A stretch of 64,000 nucleotides of DNA from Porphyrobacter sp. SLTP (GTDB lineage: Bacteria; Pseudomonadota; Alphaproteobacteria; Sphingomonadales; Sphingomonadaceae). Within the stretch, counting starts at the first letter, position 1, and each line of letters starts with the position of its first letter. Where the stretch lies: NCBI RefSeq assembly GCF_009905735.1, contig NZ_JAAALE010000005.1, forward strand, positions 62,001-126,000, in the 5' to 3' direction. The notes under the pieces are model-generated. The model was not told where the DNA came from, did no database searches, and saw only the letters and a program-made list of their open reading frames with translations. This document shows positions 49,677 through 59,079 of the stretch, one piece after another. Made by a program: the position numbers and the translations under genes.

Positions 49677-49753
49677 CGGGGAGTAGCTCAGCCTGGTAGA
49701 GCACTGTCTTCGGGAGGCAGGGGCCGGAGGTTCGAATCCTCTCTCCCCGACCA
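49677..49753 (+). tRNA. tRNA-Pro (anticodon CGG)
   Basis: 77 nt with encoded CCA. Acceptor CGGGGAG/CTCCCCG, discriminator A; anticodon stem CTGTC/GGCAG with loop TTCGGGA gives CGG; T-arm GGAGGTTCGAATCCTCT. Reads CCG codons. Confidence 0.96.
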
Positions 49754-49795
49754 ATTTCGCCACTTATGGCGCTTAAACCCACGCAAATCCGCCTT

Positions 49796-49814
49796 TTTCC
49801 TCACGTTGAGGAAA
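49796..49814. repeat. Inverted repeat between tRNA-Pro and the glycan operon
   Basis: TTTCCTCA-CGT-TGAGGAAA, perfect 8-bp arms. It lies 43 bp after tRNA-Pro and 76 bp past the stop of the convergent operon. No U-run follows on either strand, so terminator function is uncertain. Confidence 0.4.
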
Positions 49815-49889
49815 CTGGCCGGTTGGCGTTGTGGTTATGCGCGGCCCCGCTTGGCTGCGCAATACTGAGCCGAGTGGTCTCACACCATA

Positions 49890-50747
49890 TCAGAACGCAT
49901 TGCCGTCTGCGGGCCAAAGGCTCACGGCATCGTCGCGTTCGCGTTGCGTTGGCTGGCGCAGGATGCAGAGTGTGTCGTCCTGCCATGCCACCAGCCCCAG
50001 CGCGGCGAACTGTTCCAGCCAGCCTGCCATCGGCCAGAACCCGCGCTTGTCACGGAACCGCCGCGCATTGGCGACGATGTCCTCGAGATGTTGCAGCGGC
50101 GGATCAAAGCTCGGGTGATATTGGTGGCAGGCCAGCGCCCCGCCGAGAAAATGCAGCGGCACACCGGCATCGCGCGCAGCAAAGCCGAAATCGGTGTCTT
50201 CGGCCCCGTAGCCGGTAAAGCGCTCGTCAAATCCGCCGATCCGCTGAAATGTGCTGCGGCGGATGGCAAAGGCGAGCGACCAGAACAGGCCGGGATTGTC
50301 GACTTCCTCCAGTCCTTGCGCGGGAAACGGGCGAACCGGATGCACGGCGCCCTTGGCGAGCAACGAATCCTCGTCCCACGCGCCTGACGCATCGCCCGGC
50401 CCCAGATACCGCACCTCTGCGCAAACAAGCTGATCGTGCGCGCCGATCGCGTCCGAAAGCATACCCAGACAATCTCGCATCGGGATGCAATCAACGTCGA
50501 GAAATACCAGCCGCTCGCCTGCGGCGCAGGCGGCGGCGTGGTTGCGTGCTTGCGCCAGCGGGAGCCCATCGGTTTCAAGCCGCTCGAACCGCACAAGCGG
50601 ATGCTGCTCTTCAAGACGCACCGGCGTATCGCTCATGTCGACCACGATGATTTCGTCGGGCTGCAAAGCGCTGCGCGCCACACCTTCGAGCAGGTTGATC
50701 AGATGCTCGGTCCGGTTGCGGACGAGGGTGAGGAGCGACAGGCTCAT
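49890..50747 (-). CDS. Glycosyltransferase family 2
   Basis: 285 residues, GT-A fold: LSLLTLVRNRTEHL start, PDEIIVVDMSD nucleotide loop, metal-binding DVDCIPMRD (DXD-type), then GGFDERFTGYGAEDTDFGFAA with the ED catalytic-base region. This last block is typical of the galactosyltransferase-2/GT27-like branch. No membrane segment. Last gene of the seven-gene operon; start 50747 overlaps the methyltransferase stop by ATGA. Acceptor and donor unknown. Confidence 0.85.
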   Translation of the reverse strand: MSLSLLTLVRNRTEHLINLLEGVARSALQPDEIIVVDMSDTPVRLEEQHPLVRFERLETDGLPLAQARNHAAACAAGERLVFLDVDCIPMRDCLGMLSDAIGAHDQLVCAEVRYLGPGDASGAWDEDSLLAKGAVHPVRPFPAQGLEEVDNPGLFWSLAFAIRRSTFQRIGGFDERFTGYGAEDTDFGFAARDAGVPLHFLGGALACHQYHPSFDPPLQHLEDIVANARRFRDKRGFWPMAGWLEQFAALGLVAWQDDTLCILRQPTQRERDDAVSLWPADGNAF

Positions 50748-51325
50748 TGCCGCTCCCACAGATCAAGGCGGTAGCTCTCATGCCGCTCGGCAAGGCAGGG
50801 CGTGAATTGCCCGGATGTCCCCCGTTGGAGGGCGCCCACCGCCTCGTCAGCCGTGCACGGATAATCGGTTTCGCCGGTATAATGCACCAGCACCACGCGC
50901 CCACCCGGCACGAGGTGATCGGCCAGCCATAGCGCTGCGCGGGCAAGGTCGCTCGCGTCCCAGTAATAGGCGACCTCGGACATGACACACAGGTCAAATC
51001 GACTTTGCGGCGCTTCGGTCGGGAAGCCCATCTGGGCGAATTCGAGGCCGGGCTGCGTGCCCAGCCTTTGCTGAGCAAGGGCGAGAGCCGCCTGGCTGAT
51101 GTCGATCGCTAGCAACTGATCACACAGCCGGTGCAGCCGCTGTGTCAGCACGCCATGCGCGCAGCCAATCTCAAGCCCTGATGCGTAACGGCGATCATCC
51201 AGCGTTTTGATCGTCCGGTCGAACTTGCGCCGCTCATATTCGCTCGAGGCGAGATCCCACGGATCCGCATCGGAAGCGAAGATGCCTTCAAAGTAATCGG
51301 CCCCCAGGCTGCGCGCACCGCTCAT
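50744..51325 (-). CDS. NodS-like SAM-dependent methyltransferase
   Basis: 193 residues; start ATG 51325 forms ATGA with the upstream deacetylase. SAM-binding motif I is SGLEIGCAHGVLTQRLHRLC, followed by LLAIDISQAAL. The N-terminal block DADPWDLASSEYERRKFDRT and the glycine motif resemble NodS, the N-methyltransferase acting on de-N-acetylated chitooligosaccharide Nod factors (established for rhizobia). Pairing with a PIG-L deacetylase therefore suggests N-methylation of a freed amino sugar; this is inference. Could equally be an O-methyltransferase. Confidence 0.82.
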   Translation of the reverse strand: MSGARSLGADYFEGIFASDADPWDLASSEYERRKFDRTIKTLDDRRYASGLEIGCAHGVLTQRLHRLCDQLLAIDISQAALALAQQRLGTQPGLEFAQMGFPTEAPQSRFDLCVMSEVAYYWDASDLARAALWLADHLVPGGRVVLVHYTGETDYPCTADEAVGALQRGTSGQFTPCLAERHESYRLDLWERQ

Positions 51326-51987
51326 CTCGGCCAATCCACGGCAATAAGCTGGTCGGAAGATGCCATGCGCCGCATCGGCTTTGGCAGGCGGAACCCCTCG
51401 CCCATGCTGGGTGTCAGCTGACTGCGATGTGCGCTGAGCGCCCGGCGTCGCACCCCGCATGGCATGACCGGCGTCGCGAACCGCGTCCCGCGGCTGGCAG
51501 GCTCATGCCAGACCGAATAGGTGAAAATCTGCAAAGCCCGCCGCGATTGGTCACGGGCGGCGATTGCGAGTCGGAAAGCCGCAACATGATCGCAATGCCT
51601 GTCCCCCGGGTCAGACACTGCGAGCGCGTCAATCCGGCGGTTACGGATCATGATCCCCAGCTGCCTCGCCGAGCGATCAAAGGTTGTGCTCGCCTCATGG
51701 CTTGGGTTGCCGTCGGCCCATCCCAGCCAATCAATCGGGACAGGGTATTCCGCAAGCAGGCCCACCGCCCGCCGCGCTTCGCGCCTGCGCACGGTGCGCA
51801 GGTGAGGTGTGCCTTGCGGATGCGATCCGCCGCCGTCGGTAAGAAAGACCACCCCGCCCAGCCGATTGCGCGCCGCCGCATGATGGATCAGCGCGCCTGC
51901 TCCCAGCGTCTCATCGTCGGGATGCGGCGCGATCACGAGCCACCGCGCACTGCGCCAAGGGCTGCGCGCAAGCATGGCCGTCCTCAT
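51322..51987 (-). CDS. PIG-L/LmbE-family N-deacetylase
   Basis: 221 residues. N-terminal zinc motif APHPDDETLGAG (AHPDD type) and C-terminal ligand SDPGDRHCDHVAAF define the family, whose members remove N-acetyl groups from GlcNAc in GPI precursors, mycothiol (MshB) and bacillithiol (BshB). FLTDGGGSHPQ resembles the substrate loop. Cytosolic, no signal. Overlaps its neighbours on both sides by ATGA. Likely frees an amino group on a glycosyl intermediate made by the operon's glycosyltransferases. Confidence 0.9.
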   Translation of the reverse strand: MRTAMLARSPWRSARWLVIAPHPDDETLGAGALIHHAAARNRLGGVVFLTDGGGSHPQGTPHLRTVRRREARRAVGLLAEYPVPIDWLGWADGNPSHEASTTFDRSARQLGIMIRNRRIDALAVSDPGDRHCDHVAAFRLAIAARDQSRRALQIFTYSVWHEPASRGTRFATPVMPCGVRRRALSAHRSQLTPSMGEGFRLPKPMRRMASSDQLIAVDWPR

Positions 51988-53087
51988 GGCAAAGTGCCGA
52001 CCGGGGCAAACTCGCGCGTCAGGATGTCCTTTGCCGCCTCGTCGCGGGCGTAATCAGGGCCTGCCTGCCGCAGATACAGCGACAGATCGCGCGCAATCTT
52101 GTCCGCGCGCTGGCCATCGAAGGCACTGCGGGTGCCGAGAATTCGTGCGGCAGTCTCGATTGCGAGGAGGCCGGCATCCTCCACCACACCGCGCGCGATG
52201 CGGGCGGTCGTGATGGCGTCGTCGACCTCGGTGGCGGCTTTGCGGGCGGCTTCCTCGACCCAGAACCGCGCACTGCGGGCGGCGATGTGGGCCTTGGCAA
52301 AGCGTTGACGCAAGATCGCGTCTTCGCGGGATTTGGGGTGCATACCGCGCGCAGTCTCCGCAATCAGCGCCTCGACGCCGCCCAGCTGCACCGCGCAGAA
52401 CCGCCAAGCTCCGGCCGTGAAGCGCGGTTCACGGTCATATTCGCCCGGCTCACCGAGCAGCATCGCGTCCGTCACCGCCATGCCTTCAAGGTCATAGCTC
52501 CCACTGACGCTGGCCCGCATACCGCGGACCCGCCAGCCGGACAGATCGGTGCGCTCAGGATCATTGGCGCAGACGACAACCAAGCGGCGCGCTTCGCCTT
52601 CGCTGCCTGCGGTCACCACCGCCCAATCGATCCCGCCTGCGCCGCTGGCAAAGCTCTTACCGCCGGTTAAGCGCGGGCTTTCCGAACCATCGATCCGCAC
52701 ACCGGGGGGCGGTTCGCTCGCCCAGACCCCGAACCACGCGCCGCGTGCCAACTGCTTTCGCAGCCATTTCGTCTGCGATGCCGAGCCATACCAGCGAAAC
52801 AGCAGCAGCGCATTCACATGGCCTTCGAACAGCCGGCCCACGCTGAGATCGCCGTGGCCCACCTCGCCCAAAGCCGCGAGCATGCTGGCGCTGCAAGCCT
52901 CCTCATCAGCAAACGTTTCACCGCCCGCCTCCGGCGGCGCAAAGCGGCCATGCAGGCCACGGGCGACAAGCAGGTCGAGACTTTCTGATGGGAAGCGCGG
53001 AACGGCGTCATAGCGCTCGCCCAGTCGTGCCAGATCGTCAGACAGGCGCGCTGCCGGATTGTCGCGGGGTTTGAGAATGGCGGTCAT
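51984..53087 (-). CDS. Acyl-CoA-dehydrogenase-fold flavoprotein
   Basis: 367 residues from ATG 53087. ACAD fold: N-terminal helical domain (DLARLGERYDAVPRFPSESL), middle beta domain with GVWASEPPPGV and LTGGKSFASGAGGIDWAVV, and C-terminal four-helix domain ending in ARDLSLYLRQAGPDYARDE. The C-terminal part resembles the ACAD type-2 branch that includes flavin monooxygenases (DszC) and amino-sugar nitrososynthases more than fatty-acid enzymes. In a glycan operon it could desaturate an acyl chain or oxidise an amino sugar. Substrate unknown. Confidence 0.82.
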   Translation of the reverse strand: MTAILKPRDNPAARLSDDLARLGERYDAVPRFPSESLDLLVARGLHGRFAPPEAGGETFADEEACSASMLAALGEVGHGDLSVGRLFEGHVNALLLFRWYGSASQTKWLRKQLARGAWFGVWASEPPPGVRIDGSESPRLTGGKSFASGAGGIDWAVVTAGSEGEARRLVVVCANDPERTDLSGWRVRGMRASVSGSYDLEGMAVTDAMLLGEPGEYDREPRFTAGAWRFCAVQLGGVEALIAETARGMHPKSREDAILRQRFAKAHIAARSARFWVEEAARKAATEVDDAITTARIARGVVEDAGLLAIETAARILGTRSAFDGQRADKIARDLSLYLRQAGPDYARDEAAKDILTREFAPVGTLP

Positions 53088-54127
53088 GATCGGGCCTCTC
53101 GCAGGGCTTGCGGTGCTTGGGTGAGTTGTTCGAGCCAGCGGGCGACGCGCTCCGCTCCGTCCCTGACCCGCAGCGCAGCGGGGCGCTGGCTTGGCTGTCG
53201 CTCGGCCGCTGCGATCAGCATCCGCCATTGTTCAGCCTCGGGCCAGATCGCGGGGACGACCGCGGCACCAAGCGCGGCGAGCCTTTCGGCTTTGACCGCT
53301 TGCTCATCAAAAGCGCGGGGCTCGGGAAAGCAGATGAAGGGTCGCTCATGCGCAAGGACGGCGCTGACCAGCCCATCCCCCGCCGCGCCAATGACAACGC
53401 CCGCGCTGGCGATCTCGGCATCGGCGCCGTCGACCCAGCCGGCGAATTCGAGGTTCTCCGGTATGCGGGCAGGCACAACCGATGGCCCGATCACGCGCCA
53501 CGTCCGGTCCGGCACCGCAGCAGCAGCGGCGGCCCATCGCGCGCCGTCAGCCGCCTCCCCGCCCCTCCCTGCGACGACCAGCACGCGGGTAGGATCGACG
53601 CTGCGTGCTATCCCTGTCGGGATGATGCCATTGGCGTAAAAGGTCTTCTGCTTCACCCATTCCGGGATTTCCATATCATCCAGCGGCTCGGCAAAGGGTG
53701 CGAGCAGCGCCTGCGCCGATGCAAAGGCATCACAGTGTGGCGGATCGCTGCGTCTGCCGCTCAGTCGGACATAGGCCACCGGGACCGACGCCAGTCGCGC
53801 GAGCATCGCGACTTCGACCGAAACATCGACGATCATCAGATCGGGCTGAGCTTCCGCAATCCAGTTGGCAATCAGCGCAACCCGCTCGCGCACGCCTGTG
53901 TGATGCAGCGGAGCGTAATGTAGCGCAGGCGGGCGGATGGCCTTATCCCGTCCATCAAACTGGCCGTGCGGCAGGCGATCGTCGGGCAGGTCGAGGCAGG
54001 GTATGCCGTTCAGCCGTGCGCCCAGCCCAGTGCCGATCAAGGTCATCGGCCCGCGATAGGCCGCCGCAATCGCCGCGGCGCGCTGCCTGTGGCCCTCGCC
54101 CTGATGGTGGATGTAATATCCGATCAT
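53084..54127 (-). CDS. GT-B glycosyltransferase (MurG/GT28-like)
   Basis: 347 residues. N-terminal MIGYYIHHQGEGHRQRAAAI resembles the acceptor-side glycine loop of MurG-type enzymes (GxGGH). The C-terminal Rossmann domain has RVLVVAGRGGEAADG, LEFAGWVDGADAEIASAGVV and a donor-binding stretch AAGDGLVSAVLAHERPFICF, corresponding to the family's GG..T..E motif. No transmembrane helix. ATGA overlaps on both sides. Likely adds a sugar from an NDP donor to a lipid or small-molecule acceptor. Confidence 0.78.
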   Translation of the reverse strand: MIGYYIHHQGEGHRQRAAAIAAAYRGPMTLIGTGLGARLNGIPCLDLPDDRLPHGQFDGRDKAIRPPALHYAPLHHTGVRERVALIANWIAEAQPDLMIVDVSVEVAMLARLASVPVAYVRLSGRRSDPPHCDAFASAQALLAPFAEPLDDMEIPEWVKQKTFYANGIIPTGIARSVDPTRVLVVAGRGGEAADGARWAAAAAAVPDRTWRVIGPSVVPARIPENLEFAGWVDGADAEIASAGVVIGAAGDGLVSAVLAHERPFICFPEPRAFDEQAVKAERLAALGAAVVPAIWPEAEQWRMLIAAAERQPSQRPAALRVRDGAERVARWLEQLTQAPQALREARS

Positions 54128-55056
54128 GCCGACGAAGCCCGTAATCGCTTCGGCAGGGACATTTCGTTGGGCATGGGCGGCAGCTTGGCTTCGGCCAGCA
54201 TCAGCTCACCTGGGCCAAGCGCCCGGCGCATCGCGCGGCGCCACAAAGCGCGGGATTGCCAGTGGTTAAATGCCGGAACCTTGGGGTCAACGCCGTCCGA
54301 TCCGGCAGCGAGCCAGCGGCGCATTTCCTCTGCCATACCGCCATCCGCTCTCCCCGCAGGCCGCGCAGACGTGCGGGTCCACACGGCTTGGGGATGAATG
54401 AGCTCACCGCCCACAGCGAGCGCCGCAGCCACCAATGCGCGATCTTCGCCCGATGAGGTCAAGGGAACGCCCCCCGCAGCGTCATACAGCCCCGCCGTCA
54501 GAGCGAGGCTCGCTCCGGTGTGATCGCCGTGGCGGGGCGGCAGATCCCACGGAACCGGATCGACCGCGTCCTCGATTTCGCGAACCTTGCTCCAGTAATC
54601 ATCGAACCGACTGCGCAGATCGAATAGCAGGGGCCATGTGTCGGCCTCCCTCTCGTCAAGTTCGACCCGGCCGCCAACGATGCGCATCGGCCCAGCGCTC
54701 GCCAGATTGGCTTCGAGCCAGTCCGCAGGCGGGCGGCAATCCGCATCGGTGCTGACGAGCAAGGCATCGTCTTCATTCAGCCATCCAGCGCCAAGATCCA
54801 TTGCCGCCCGCCGCGCTGATCCAGCATGAGCACGCTCCGGCGGAAATTCGCAGGTCAGGAGGTTAAGCCGCAAGCGCCCATCGGCCTTTGCGACCGCCTC
54901 TTCCGCCGCCTCTGCACTCCCGTCGGTCGAGTTGTTGACGCACAAGGCGACATTGATCGGGGCCGAAAGGGTCTGGTGCGCCAAGGCCTCGAGCAGCAAT
55001 GGCAATCGCTTCGCCTCATTTCGGGCCGGGACACAGACGACGACCGGCCGCGTCAT
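54124..55056 (-). CDS. Glycosyltransferase family 2 (second copy)
   Basis: 310 residues; ATG 55056 overlaps the upstream stop (ATGA). GT-A start VVVCVPARNEAKRLPLLLEAL, nucleotide site NNSTDGSAEAA, DXD in LVSTDADCRPP and a TSSGEDRALVAAAL base region. C-terminal helix rich in Arg/Leu (RRAMRRALGPGELMLAEAKL). Differs clearly from the GT2 at the operon end, so not a recent duplication. Acceptor unknown. Confidence 0.85.
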   Translation of the reverse strand: MTRPVVVCVPARNEAKRLPLLLEALAHQTLSAPINVALCVNNSTDGSAEAAEEAVAKADGRLRLNLLTCEFPPERAHAGSARRAAMDLGAGWLNEDDALLVSTDADCRPPADWLEANLASAGPMRIVGGRVELDEREADTWPLLFDLRSRFDDYWSKVREIEDAVDPVPWDLPPRHGDHTGASLALTAGLYDAAGGVPLTSSGEDRALVAAALAVGGELIHPQAVWTRTSARPAGRADGGMAEEMRRWLAAGSDGVDPKVPAFNHWQSRALWRRAMRRALGPGELMLAEAKLPPMPNEMSLPKRLRASSA

Positions 55057-56159
55057 GCGCTCAGGGCCAACGCGGCCGCGCGGCCTCGCTGCCGAGCGAA
55101 ATCCGCGGTCCGGGCGGTCAGGCGGCGATAAAGCTGCTCGTAGGAATCGACCATCCGGTGTGCATTGCAATGCTTCTCGGCCCGGCGGCGGCAGGCGGCG
55201 CGATCCATGCTCAGCGCGGCGCGGATGGCAGCGGCAAGGCTCGCCACATCATCAGGCTCGGCCAAGGCGCCACAGGTCGCATCAACGATCGCCGGAATCC
55301 CACCCCGGCGAAACGCAGCTACCGGCGTGCCGCAAGACAACGCCTCGGCCACGACGAGGCCGTAGGGCTCCTCCCAGCACGGGGTGCACAGCGCCACACT
55401 GGCACCACCGATCAATTTGGCGAGGTCGCGGTGCGCCAAGTGTCCGAGGTAGGTGACATCATCACCCAGACGCGGCGCGATCCACTCGCTGAAATAGGCT
55501 TGGTTAGACCGTGGCCCGGCGATCTTCAGTGGCAGGCCAACCGCGCGGGCCGCATCAATGGCGAGGTGCAGGCCTTTTTCGGGAACGATCCTTCCATACC
55601 ACACCAGATAGCGATCCGCGGCGGCTTGCGGACTGAAGGGGAAAAGATCGAGGTCTATCCCGTTGGGGATGACGCTATCGACCGTTGTGACACTCTGCCA
55701 CAGATCGGCTGTCGCCTGAGAGACGGCGACAAGATGGCTCGACTTGCGGCTGAGCCTGACGCCGCTTTCCAGCCAGCAGAACGGCGGCGTGTGCAGCGTG
55801 GTGACAGTCGGCACACGCAGCGTCGCGGCCATGGTCAGCGGCAGATAGTGCAGCGAATTGTTATGGATGATGTCGAACGACCGGGTCTGCAGATCGGTCA
55901 TCAGGCGCAGATAGGCGTGGTGTTCGCGAAAGAAAGCGACATTGCCCGCTTCGGCAAGTCCGGTCTCCAGCAGCGATGTTTCCTCGCAGATCGCCTCGAT
56001 CCCCAGCGCTGGATCCGATGCCAGCGACGCAAACAAAGTCACATCATGGCCGCGTTCGCGCAGCGATTTGGCCAGCAGATGCGTGTGCATTTCGAGGCCA
56101 CCGGCAAAGGGTTCGGCAATCGCGTATTTGAGATGTGCGATGATCGCGATCTTGAGCAT
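55053..56159 (-). CDS. Glycosyltransferase family 4
   Basis: 368 residues, GT-B fold: IAEPFAGGLEMHTHLLAKSL acceptor loop, SVIPNGIDLDLFPF hinge, YGRIVPEKGLHLAIDAA phosphate loop and the EX7E donor motif in EEPYGLVVAEALSCG. First gene of the seven-gene operon. Start ATG 56159. Family 4 retaining enzymes include MshA and BshA, which start mycothiol and bacillithiol synthesis together with PIG-L deacetylases, a parallel worth noting though the rest of the operon differs. Confidence 0.88.
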   Translation of the reverse strand: MLKIAIIAHLKYAIAEPFAGGLEMHTHLLAKSLRERGHDVTLFASLASDPALGIEAICEETSLLETGLAEAGNVAFFREHHAYLRLMTDLQTRSFDIIHNNSLHYLPLTMAATLRVPTVTTLHTPPFCWLESGVRLSRKSSHLVAVSQATADLWQSVTTVDSVIPNGIDLDLFPFSPQAAADRYLVWYGRIVPEKGLHLAIDAARAVGLPLKIAGPRSNQAYFSEWIAPRLGDDVTYLGHLAHRDLAKLIGGASVALCTPCWEEPYGLVVAEALSCGTPVAAFRRGGIPAIVDATCGALAEPDDVASLAAAIRAALSMDRAACRRRAEKHCNAHRMVDSYEQLYRRLTARTADFARQRGRAAALALSA

Positions 56160-56554
56160 GGAGCCTCGGGGGGTTGAGCGGCCTGAGCTCAGAACCATGG
56201 GCCCTATCGTCCGTGCTGTCCCTAACTCCCGAAATGATCATGCGTTTGGAACACCAAGACCCTCAGCTCTGCTGCCCAATGGGACTCGCACGCGAGAGCG
56301 CGCGAAGGCGTTGGTGGTATCACCGAGTTCGACACGGGCGGGTCAAGTTTGAGAAGGCATGACGAACCTCAACTCGCCGACAAGGTGCGCCGATCCGCGC
56401 TAGTCGCCGATGTCGTCCCGTGCGGTGCAATGGTTAATGAGAATCGCTCAGCGACCGATTCCATCTCCAGAAGATCCGTCAAACGCGGGGCAACCAATGG
56501 GCCGTGCCATCCGGTTCGGAGCGCCTTTGGCCTAGGAAAACGCCGCCCCAGAAA
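56160..56554. other. Non-coding stretch upstream of the glycan operon
   Basis: About 395 bp with no convincing gene. An open + strand frame at 56349-56678 has no ribosome binding site, no family similarity and runs through a terminator, so it is treated as chance. On the minus strand TTGACC (56346-56341) might be a -35 element for the glycan operon, but no good -10 is seen. AATGAGAATCGCTC near 56433 is vaguely Fur-box-like; not supported further. Confidence 0.4.
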
Positions 56555-56583
56555 CGAAAAAAGCCCCGGTTTCCCGAGGCTTT
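56555..56583 (-). terminator. Rho-independent terminator after the tiny gene and EAL gene
   Basis: On the minus strand GCCTCGG-GAAA-CCGGGGC, a 7-bp stem capped by a GNRA tetraloop, is followed directly by TTTTTTCG. Located 24 bp past the stop of the 12-codon gene and about 125 bp past the EAL gene. Confidence 0.88.
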
Positions 56584-56706: not shown

Positions 56707-59079
56707 TCAACCGTTAATTGCGATGCGCCCTCCGCCCATCATGGCCAGCAGTTCTGCCATCGGAATGGCGCGCGAGAACAGATAGCCTTGCGCCTGATCG
56801 CAGCCCATCGCTTTGAGCGCCGCTGCAACCGAGATGTCCTCGACGCCTTCTGCGACGACGATCTTTCCAAGCGAATGCGCGATCTCAATCGTCGCTCGCA
56901 CCACAGCGCGGCTTTCCTCGGATGTGGCCATGTGCTGCACGAAGCGCTTGTCGATCTTGAGCTCGGAGCTCGGCAGCTTCTCGATATATTCGAGATTGGA
57001 TTGGCCGGTGCCGAAATCGTCGATCGACAGGCCGATACCACGCGCCTTTAGCGCCGCGATCTGCGGCGCGATCCGATCATCCTCAAGCTTGGCCGTTTCG
57101 GTCAGTTCCAGCGTCAAATTCTCGGGCGGGAAGGCGAAGCGGCCCAGCAAGGTCATGATATCGAACAGCAAGTGCGTATCCGACAGGCTCTTGGCCGACA
57201 TGTTGACCGCCAGCTTGAAGCGCGGATCAAGCGCGATCGCCTGCTTGCCCTCAAGCAGAGCCTGCTCCATCACAACCAGGGTAAGCTCGTTGATCCGGTC
57301 GCCCGCTTCGGCTGCGAGCACCAGTTCTTGCGGGTTGACCGGCTCCTCACCCTCGGGCTGCCAGCGAATCAAGGTTTCCGCACCGACGATCCGGCCTGAC
57401 GCCAGGTCGATCTTGGGCTGGTAGGCCACACCGATATCGCGGTCGCGCAGGCCCTTTTCCAACACCTTGATCAGCTGAAGGCGATTATTGCGCGCTTCGA
57501 GATACGCCGCGTCATTGATGATGAAGCGCACCCCGCGGTTCGCGGCTTCGTCGGCCGCCTGCATCGCTTTCTTGATCCGCGAGGCGACCGGCAAGTCGTG
57601 ATTGGTATCGATCCCGAGTGCAGGAGCACTGTTCGACGACTGCCAGTCATAGCTGATCGCGGTCTTCAGCATCATCGCAAGCCCATCGGCATGGCGTTCG
57701 AGCTCGCCATTCTCCATGCGCGGCGCGAGCCACACCAGCAGGTCCCGCTCGAACGCAACGTCGCCGACTTCGCCCGGTCCCTTCACGTAAGCGATGAGCG
57801 TGTTGACGAACTCCCCGATCTCACGTGCGGTCCATTCTTCCGAAAACTCGGCGAGATTGGCGATCTTGAGCGCGTAGACGTCGCGCTCTTCGCTCGGGCG
57901 ATCCGAGGCGATCGCCGATGTCGTCATCGCATCGACATCACTGCTGTAATATTTGCGATTGATCCTCTGGAAGCCGATGGCGGCCGCCCCCATGGCGAGC
58001 AAGGCGGACATGATGTCGATGTTGAAGGTGAATTCATCGAGCACGAATGTCGCGATCAGCAGCCCGAACGACGTGATCAGCAAGGACTTCGACGCGCGCC
58101 GCCGGCTCATCACCTGCACCGCCATGGCGACCGTCGCCAGCAGCATCGCCGGGTACCACATCAAGTCAAGCGGCACGCCGCGCTTCAGTGTGTGCGCGCC
58201 AAGAACATGAAAATAGGAACCCGGCACTTTCGTGTTCGGGCGGAACGGCAGGAAGTAGTAGTCGCTCGATCCGAAGAAGGCTTGCCCGATCACAACGTTT
58301 TTGCCGCGCAGTTCTGCCGCCGGGACGCGGCCATTCAGCACATCGACATAGCTGAACGAGGGAACGGTCGAAGCATCGAACGCGGTGTCGGGCCGATAGA
58401 GTCGCTCCGGCCCTTGGTAATCAGCAAGGACGGCAGAGATGGACCCTTCCTTTTTGCCCCCGAGGTCAATCGAGGTCGGGAAGATCACAGACAGGCCGAA
58501 AAGATTGGCGCGCCCGTTCATCGCTGCGAGATTGACGGTTTTGCGGAATTCTGGGAGCGGCGCGATCTCGTCGACCCTCTGGAAGCCGATATCGCTTGCC
58601 GGGACAACGCCCAACCACACCTTGCCCTGATGACGCGCCAGCATGTCGGCAAACATCGCGTCGGATTTGGGCGTTTCGGGATCGGCATGCGCGCGGTCGA
58701 ACACCACCCGGCGCACGCCGGAAGCGATCAGCGTATCGACCACCTTGGTATCTTGCACCCGATTGGGAAGGTTGCGCTTGTTGGCGGCGAGCGTCTTGTC
58801 GTCGATCGCGATCATCACAACATCGCGCGGCGCAGGGCGGGAACGCAGCTCTGCACGCGCGGCGCGGTAGACATCTTCGAGCGGCAGCGGAAGCTCGATG
58901 ACAGAGGAAACCACCCCGAACAGCACCGCTAGTATGGCGACTTTGGTGCGTTTGCGGCGCAGCAAGGCGGCCCCCGAACGCTGCGCTAGTTCCTGTTTGA
59001 ATCCAGTAACTTCCTCGCCGGCCAAGCCGAACGTGCGCCGTATCGTGTCGGCCAGAGACTGAAGCTTTCCGAACATCAA
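56707..59079 (-). CDS. CHASE2-EAL cyclic-di-GMP phosphodiesterase
   Basis: 790 residues. N-terminal TM (about 48-66), CHASE2 extracellular sensor (about 70-305; VMIAIDDKTL, VVFDRAHADPETP), three C-terminal TMs (about 310-375), a domain at about 395-520 that occupies the GGDEF place but has AFERDLLVWL instead of GGDEF, then EAL (about 540-785). EAL catalytic residues are kept: ETLIRW, NMSAKSL, LELTETA, DDFGTG, LKIDKRFV, VAEGVED. It should hydrolyse c-di-GMP in response to an envelope signal, the degenerate domain perhaps binding GTP as regulator. No overlap with neighbours. Confidence 0.9.
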   Translation of the reverse strand: MMFGKLQSLADTIRRTFGLAGEEVTGFKQELAQRSGAALLRRKRTKVAILAVLFGVVSSVIELPLPLEDVYRAARAELRSRPAPRDVVMIAIDDKTLAANKRNLPNRVQDTKVVDTLIASGVRRVVFDRAHADPETPKSDAMFADMLARHQGKVWLGVVPASDIGFQRVDEIAPLPEFRKTVNLAAMNGRANLFGLSVIFPTSIDLGGKKEGSISAVLADYQGPERLYRPDTAFDASTVPSFSYVDVLNGRVPAAELRGKNVVIGQAFFGSSDYYFLPFRPNTKVPGSYFHVLGAHTLKRGVPLDLMWYPAMLLATVAMAVQVMSRRRASKSLLITSFGLLIATFVLDEFTFNIDIMSALLAMGAAAIGFQRINRKYYSSDVDAMTTSAIASDRPSEERDVYALKIANLAEFSEEWTAREIGEFVNTLIAYVKGPGEVGDVAFERDLLVWLAPRMENGELERHADGLAMMLKTAISYDWQSSNSAPALGIDTNHDLPVASRIKKAMQAADEAANRGVRFIINDAAYLEARNNRLQLIKVLEKGLRDRDIGVAYQPKIDLASGRIVGAETLIRWQPEGEEPVNPQELVLAAEAGDRINELTLVVMEQALLEGKQAIALDPRFKLAVNMSAKSLSDTHLLFDIMTLLGRFAFPPENLTLELTETAKLEDDRIAPQIAALKARGIGLSIDDFGTGQSNLEYIEKLPSSELKIDKRFVQHMATSEESRAVVRATIEIAHSLGKIVVAEGVEDISVAAALKAMGCDQAQGYLFSRAIPMAELLAMMGGGRIAING

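Follow-up and report, generated by a model that had tools for sequence, protein, structure and literature searches.

Seven co-directional genes on the minus strand, running from position 56159 to 49890 of a 64,000-nucleotide stretch of Porphyrobacter sp. SLTP (contig NZ_JAAALE010000005.1; the whole stretch is hereafter the window), constitute what sequence comparison indicates is a real, conserved and composite biosynthetic operon. By the same comparison, it combines two modules that also occur apart from each other. Module A comprises a glycosyltransferase (GT2a), a flavoprotein with the acyl-CoA dehydrogenase (ACAD) fold, a PIG-L-type deacetylase and a NodS-like methyltransferase; module B comprises the glycosyltransferases GT4, MurG-like and GT2b. 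We consider it roughly 45% probable that these genes act as a cytosolic assembly line whose product is a stress-associated oligosaccharide or glycoside bearing a tailored amino sugar. The product would most likely be a soluble or cell-associated oligosaccharide whose amino sugar is de-N-acetylated, N-methylated and oxygenated; its solubility, like all substrates, the order of the steps and a stress role in this strain, is what we infer.

The enzyme set has been annotated piecemeal, as acyl-CoA dehydrogenase, PIG-L deacetylase, nodulation methyltransferase and glycosyltransferase, and appears to form one pathway in many bacteria; in many hosts, its genes lie with those for DNA repair, catalase or trehalose. 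On this reading, if correct, bacteria would have a further, unknown metabolite among their means of withstanding stress and desiccation, the label 'acyl-CoA dehydrogenase' would be misleading and need correction, and the chemistry could be tested directly. Among the matches listed from the open-licence PMC literature, no description of the gene set or its regulation was found, and word searches of the accessible text of PMC7083833, PMC3892343, PMC8092242 and PMC6180224 returned nothing relevant to the gene set.

Organization of the operon

Each of the six consecutive junctions in the operon is a 4-base ATGA overlap. These junctions were read from the sequence and re-found by script, and both they and the gene order bear out the sequence-only reading of this DNA, which had described seven genes joined by six ATGA overlaps. 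Among open frames of 150 codons or more, the 64-kb window contains nine ATGA junctions, all on the minus strand and six of them in the operon. Single ATGA overlaps are thus ordinary, and the uninterrupted run of six is the unusual part. In seven relatives, many junctions were 4-base overlaps (ATGA or GTGA), and gaps and other overlaps also occurred. Tight coupling is therefore conserved among relatives and the all-ATGA pattern is not.

According to Pfam, GT4, both GT2 proteins, the PIG-L protein and the NodS-like protein scored over their cut-offs. The MurG-like protein (PF04101, 20.8 versus 22 bits) and the ACAD-fold protein (PF00441, 20.0 versus 22.4 bits; PF02771, 19.7 versus 22.9 bits) were slightly under them. 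With these two matches just below threshold, the data support the families named in the sequence-only reading. They also agree with its claim that no flippase, polymerase or lipid-carrier transferase is present: Pfam detected none of these, and no ligase, among the seven genes or in the ten neighbouring frames scanned, two of which matched no family at 1e-5. A hydropathy scan detected no clear transmembrane segment in the seven proteins, the MurG-like protein coming nearest with a peak of 1.74.

These results bear on a different reading, in which the product, or the structure that the operon decorates, is a membrane glycolipid or surface glycan, such as a lipopolysaccharide (LPS) core, an exopolysaccharide repeat or a hopanoid-type glycolipid, and the lipid or export part is encoded elsewhere. 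We regard this as possible but somewhat unlikely. The absence of a lipid-carrier transferase, flippase and polymerase argues against it, in a search that covered the seven genes rather than export genes genome-wide, as do the hydropathy data and the soluble acceptors used by the nearest solved relatives of GT4. In its favour, the hydrophobic stretch of the MurG-like protein is the strongest of the seven, the best NCBIfam match of GT2a is the hopene-associated HpnB (35.9 bits versus a cut-off of 379), and module B elsewhere extends into further genes, described below. A known LPS-core or capsule locus was not recognized, and no gene supporting one was found among the seven genes and ten neighbouring frames.

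Table 1. Genes of the operon and the segment lacking in a relative, in window coordinates.
Feature	Position	Strand	Evidence
GT4 glycosyltransferase P0001, first gene, module B	55053..56159	-	PF00534/PF13439 over cut-off
GT2a glycosyltransferase P0002, module A	54124..55056	-	PF00535 33.4 bits
MurG-like GT-B glycosyltransferase P0003, module B	53084..54127	-	PF04101 just under cut-off
ACAD-fold flavoprotein P0004, group D flavin monooxygenase-like, module A	51984..53087	-	DszC profile 4.5e-31, model pLDDT 93.2
PIG-L-type de-N-acetylase P0005, module A	51322..51987	-	PF02585 74.9 bits
NodS-like S-adenosylmethionine (SAM) methyltransferase P0006, module A	50744..51325	-	PF05401 66.3 bits
GT2b glycosyltransferase P0007, last gene, module B	49890..50747	-	PF00535 45.3 + PF02709 30.6 bits
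Segment between tRNA-Pro and the EAL-domain gene that relative G013 (L206) lacks at the corresponding site	~49762..56558		alignment

The ACAD-fold flavoprotein

When the P0004 profile was compared with solved chains, DszC (4.5e-31), TdsC and MsuC (3.7e-25) ranked on top, and the lower ranks contained dehydrogenases mixed with the nitrososynthases KijD3 (4.7e-16), ORF36 and DnmZ. The predicted structure, of high confidence (pLDDT 93.2), had TdsC and DszC as its best Foldseek matches. In true dehydrogenases, we take the catalytic glutamate to lie either within helix G or within the YEG[T/S] motif near the C terminus. At the column of the motif glutamate, which depends on a one-residue gap in the alignment, 42 of 42 members had Gln341; in helix G, no glutamate was present in the 10 members inspected. 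For comparison, 12 frames around PF00441 hits in the same genome included eight with either glutamate and four with neither, some of the four being distant types or wrongly chosen frames.

An acyl-CoA dehydrogenase function of P0004 was rejected because the dehydrogenase glutamate is absent and the closest relatives are monooxygenases. The protein combines the ACAD fold with closest relatives among group D enzymes, and thus appears to resemble a DszC/MsuC-type flavin monooxygenase; oxygenation with O2 and reduced flavin is predicted. The flavoprotein of the sequence-only reading therefore stands as to its fold, and its acyl-CoA dehydrogenase sense gives way to a monooxygenase-like one. DszC/TdsC, MsuC and KijD3/ORF36/DnmZ share with P0004 the ACAD fold without the dehydrogenase glutamate. 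By contrast with these enzymes, to which it is ∼20% identical, P0004 comes from a family repeatedly encountered together with PIG-L and NodS.

The deacetylase and the methyltransferase

The best solved relative of the PIG-L profile was diacetylchitobiose deacetylase (5.5e-26). Residues His22, Asp24, Asp25, Glu26, His131, Asp133 and His134 were invariant in 42 of 42 sequences, and P0005 has both the HPDDE + HxDH zinc/catalytic motif of the PIG-L/LmbE family and a PF02585 match over cut-off. The methyltransferase profile matched the solved chain 4isc, named 'Methyltransferase' (1.6e-60), and NodS 3ofj (1.1e-30). P0006 scored 66 bits with PF05401 (cut-off 24) and 72 bits with the NCBIfam NodS equivalog (cut-off 300). 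At two loci, L022 and L065, PIG-L and NodS are one reading frame. A role in anti-phage defence was rejected, PADLOC having yielded a single match, that of P0006 to the methyltransferase part of mad2.

The pairing of GT4 with PIG-L is shared with the mycothiol and bacillithiol pathways, recalling MshA/MshB and BshA/BshB, and the sequence-only reading had suggested a thiol cofactor analogue. Weak NCBIfam matches to BshB1 (44.5 bits), MshA (43.4) and BshA (46) accord with a pathway of that type. Nevertheless, every one of these scores is far under its cut-off, the set of seven has no cysteine-adding enzyme and no ligase step, and a thiol pathway would leave the NodS-like protein, the monooxygenase-like protein and three more glycosyltransferases unexplained. 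We therefore discarded the suggestion as very improbable.

The glycosyltransferases

The closest solved chains to GT4 were 7fg9, the glucosylsucrose synthase TeGSS (2e-43), and a UDP-glucose:tetrahydrobiopterin glucosyltransferase (4.5e-35). Both glucosylate soluble acceptors, in keeping with a cytosolic assembly line. The GT4 from a sucrose-phosphate synthase (SPS) operon at another locus, L184, matched the two about equally. As described in the accessible text of PMC9909042, TeGSS is tll1591, lies beside the sucrose-phosphate synthase tll1590 and has Tyr18 and Arg179 as catalytic residues. The parallels here are the kinship of GT4 to TeGSS and the position of module B beside a fused SPS in other genomes. 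P0001 retains Arg179 and Lys184 (GRxxPEKG) and aligns Ala with Tyr18. Glucosylsucrose synthase identity is thus not supported for P0001, given this replacement and a genome that, unlike the tll1591 setting, has no match to sucrose-6-phosphate phosphatase (S6PP).

In GT2a, Asp104, Asp106, Glu204 and Asp205 were invariant in 31 of 31 aligned sequences, and its profile found solved relatives at weak scores (best 4.7e-10). The MurG-like protein matched the MurG chain 7d1i weakly (E 0.0013). In other sphingomonads, GT2b is again a neighbour of the MurG-like and sucrose-phosphate synthase genes.

Proposed pathway

In the pathway that we propose, module B (GT4, MurG-like and GT2b) would build or lengthen a sugar chain on a small acceptor. 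GT2a would transfer an N-acetylhexosamine, the PIG-L protein would take off the acetyl group and the NodS-like enzyme would N-methylate the freed amine. The group D-type monooxygenase, supplied with reduced flavin by a reductase encoded elsewhere, would oxygenate the sugar or its nitrogen. That a modified amino-sugar conjugate is built step by step, as first proposed from the letters of this DNA, would thus be the natural reading of the gene set.

The deacetylation and methylation steps follow the NodB/NodS logic of Nod factors with another deacetylase. In the Nod factor pathway, NodC, NodB and NodS perform sugar transfer, deacetylation and N-methylation of the freed amine, NodB being a CE4 enzyme. 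The operon differs in having a PIG-L-type deacetylase in place of NodB, an added monooxygenase-like enzyme, four glycosyltransferases and no NodA: according to Pfam and NCBIfam, the seven genes at this locus include neither a NodA acyltransferase nor a NodB-type deacetylase with NodC. The parallel nonetheless raises the prospect that the product, instead of protecting against stress, acts as a diffusible signal or is a secondary metabolite, resembling Nod factors or aminoglycosides. The nitrososynthase relatives of the flavoprotein, which act on aminosugars in antibiotic pathways, point the same way, as does an HlyD-type efflux gene close to module A at one locus (L027). We consider such a product unlikely: neither NodA nor an exporter is among the seven genes, and the neighbours in many hosts are stress genes instead.

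A more specific form of the assembly-line proposal is speculative. Module A might be a widespread pathway that converts the N-acetylglucosamine of a glycoside into an N-methylated, N-oxygenated amino sugar (a hydroxylamine or nitrone) by way of the ACAD-fold oxygenase, on a trehalose- or sucrose-type oligosaccharide. Such products could be a new, perhaps redox-active class of stress protectants common to several phyla, to which sphingomonads would have added a second glycosyltransferase module. We give this version a low probability.

Recurrence and co-inheritance of module A

With PIG-L as the sole query, species genomes of bacteria and archaea yielded at least 429 confirmed relatives, the best 80 of which were taken as the locus set. 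ACAD, PIG-L and NodS were all present at 55 of these 80 loci: 22 in Gammaproteobacteria, 21 in Alphaproteobacteria, 10 in Bacteroidota, 1 in Verrucomicrobia and 1 in Nostoc, phyla being assigned by recall from genus names. Module A therefore spans several phyla and is not confined to close strains. The 25 loci without the full triple include two, L041 and L088, at which PIG-L occurs with NodS. The proteins are also co-inherited. Using protein ends picked by script and excluding the two PIG-L–NodS fusions, the ACAD, PIG-L and NodS distance matrices correlated with r of 0.86-0.92 over 58 loci, and that of GT2a correlated with the three at 0.71-0.88 over 35 loci.

All seven genes were found at 12 of 97 loci. 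Their order and direction are those of the window at L012-L017 and on the plasmid L092, and they are rearranged at L025, L049, L065, L076 and L094. A further genome, G001 (L106), has the seven genes in the order and direction of the window. L012 and G011 are apparently one genome. The seven-gene set at L013, from a metagenome-assembled genome labelled Hyphomonas, is sphingomonad-like at 59-78% identity, possibly owing to lateral transfer or misbinning. In Deinococcus radiodurans (L091, 10543-12882), the ACAD domain carries an N-terminal fusion to a further domain, with PIG-L next and a methyltransferase after an intervening helicase gene. The N-terminal domain matched (79 bits, 25% identity) a GH1-match protein near module A in Spirosoma (L035).

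Module B and its association with module A

In other sphingomonads, module B occurs with a fused sucrose-phosphate synthase/phosphatase (SPS-S6PP). At three loci, L183, L184 and L185, it is followed by genes for a polysaccharide pyruvyltransferase and an additional GT2, an arrangement that favours the glycolipid or surface glycan reading. Among the regions fetched, L177, L178 and L180 had the MurG-like gene with no GT4 or GT2b nearby.

We then examined the two modules together in 397 Sphingomonadales genomes. With at most five candidates scored per genome, so that the counts are lower bounds, MurG-like relatives (E 1e-20) occurred in at least 55 genomes and ACAD relatives (E 1e-25) in at least 47. 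Both occurred in 28 genomes against 6.5 expected, in a statistic that ignores phylogeny; the co-occurrence that had been put forward as a check of the operon is thus borne out. After removal of nine genomes with linked modules, chosen by eye from coordinates, both modules were present in 19 of 388 genomes versus 4.5 expected. One genome (G421) has a six-gene operon without the MurG-like gene and two MurG-like genes elsewhere.

Among 29 genomes, a strong S6PP match (E <1e-30) was present in 19 of 19 with unlinked modules, partly by construction since these were picked by the MurG-like gene, which adjoins SPS, and, of the 10 that carry the seven-gene operon, in G011 alone. Two other seven-gene-operon genomes, G255 and G381, had weak matches near 1e-8, and the window genome had none. 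A sucrose acceptor was accordingly rejected for this strain. OtsA is present in the window genome and in 28 of the 29 genomes examined, and is hence uninformative as to a trehalose acceptor. At L105 (579-3755, G003), matches to SPS and to the module B MurG-like gene were broken into several segments, suggesting that this copy has decayed.

Stress context

Beyond what the sequence-only reading had contained, module A proved to lie near stress genes in many hosts. KatE, Ku, LigD, TreY, MalQ, GlgX/TreZ or SPS was near 27 of 55 module A loci versus 2 of 25 other PIG-L loci, or 2 of 23 when L041 and L088, which have no stress marker, were left out of the control; the marker query proteins were taken from the same loci, mostly those of module A. 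At 13 Pseudomonas loci (L057, L058, L066, L069-L071, L073, L077, L079, L084-L086 and L090), module A is beside TreY and GlgX/TreZ-type genes, with MalQ at 12 of them. Plasmids provide further cases: LigD, catalase and Hsp20 are near the seven-gene set in Novosphingobium, Ku, LigD and RpoH are near module A in Bradyrhizobium, and a 'general stress protein' gene is close by in a Komagataeibacter plasmid region.

Upstream regions were also scanned for EcfG-like promoters, for which we assumed the motif GGAAC-N15-18-GTT. Similar motifs are given in the accessible text of PMC6599016. In a first alphaproteobacterial set, the motif was found at 5 of 33 regions upstream of module A genes, all at GT2a, versus ∼0.9 expected; many of the ACAD upstream regions in this set fall inside GT2a and are not promoter regions. 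In a second set, covering module A or B, it was found at 6 of 28 regions (6 of 29 with L182) versus 0.55 expected. The regions rest on script-chosen gene starts, and that of L014 was slightly short.

The accessible part of the same study places genes #3506-#3509 of Sphingomonas melonis Fr1 among its top 50 EcfG-dependent genes, in the company of Ku, MalQ, malto-oligosyltrehalose trehalohydrolase, GlgX, catalase and a cAMP-binding regulator (PMC6599016). As annotated there, #3505-#3509 encode a glycosyltransferase, a 'Predicted glycosyl transferase', 'Predicted glycosyltransferases', a 'Glycosyltransferase' and an 'Exopolysaccharide biosynthesis protein', an order and annotation that fit the SPS, MurG-like, GT2b, GT4 and pyruvyltransferase genes of L184. 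The name of the fifth gene favours a surface glycan. An acyl-CoA dehydrogenase, a deacetylase or PIG-L is not named in the main text of the study as accessible (PMC6599016).

Several observations weigh against a stress-associated soluble product. The enrichment of stress genes is driven by Pseudomonas (19 of 19 loci), the figure elsewhere being 8 of 36, and of the two positive controls, one (L048) is a Pseudomonas locus whose PIG-L gene adjoins Ku and LigD; neither ACAD nor NodS was found there, even with Pseudomonas queries. Ku, LigD or catalase was near in just 2 of 7 plasmid regions; a Methylobacterium plasmid has ACAD with no annotated PIG-L or methyltransferase beside it, and the Nostoc plasmid record, one of the seven, carries no annotation. 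No obvious stress gene was seen among the window neighbours scanned, and none of ten operons with six or seven of the genes (window, L012-L017, L092, L106 and L182) had an EcfG-like promoter upstream. In the accessible text of PMC6599016, #3505 is a putative indirect EcfG target, for which a lacZ fusion was tested, and the S. melonis operon was matched to module B by order and annotation, not by sequence. As for the chemistry, the VIA-align Z scores of the P0004 model tie monooxygenases with true dehydrogenases, the Ala at the position of Tyr18 indicates that the acceptor of GT4 may differ from that of TeGSS, and a surface glycan is suggested by the pyruvyltransferase that adjoins module B in other genomes. 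An EcfG promoter at the window operon was accordingly rejected, the motif scan being negative, and no common promoter upstream of the seven-gene operons was apparent by eye in a DNA alignment.

Genomic site

The order thyA, tRNA-Pro, operon, EAL gene and ABC1 gene is common to the window and G001. In the relative G013 (L206), the segment containing the operon is missing from this site (Table 1): the sequence is identical through tRNA-Pro for 85 bases and realigns from about window position 56559, with ∼105 bases in between, and the EAL gene is reached within 265 bases of tRNA-Pro. In G011, the operon is located away from the thyA/tRNA-Pro match. Among 61 relatives, the window genome included, ACAD was found in 4 and the MurG-like gene in 8; in a phylum sample, ACAD was found in at least 13 of 397 genomes. 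This patchy distribution fits lateral transfer or repeated loss. The G+C content (0.655 versus 0.644 for the window) gives no support to a recent foreign origin. Phage-like integration at tRNA-Pro was rejected, as a search of the window for a repeat of the tRNA 3' end was negative.

On the 3' side of tRNA-Pro(CGG), itself at window positions 49677-49753, the site is variable, holding the operon in the window and G001 and almost nothing in G013. In G022, ∼6.3 kb of other content lies between this tRNA gene and the EAL gene. Directly upstream of the operon, on the same strand, the window has a CHASE2-EAL gene (56707-59079) encoding a putative c-di-GMP phosphodiesterase.

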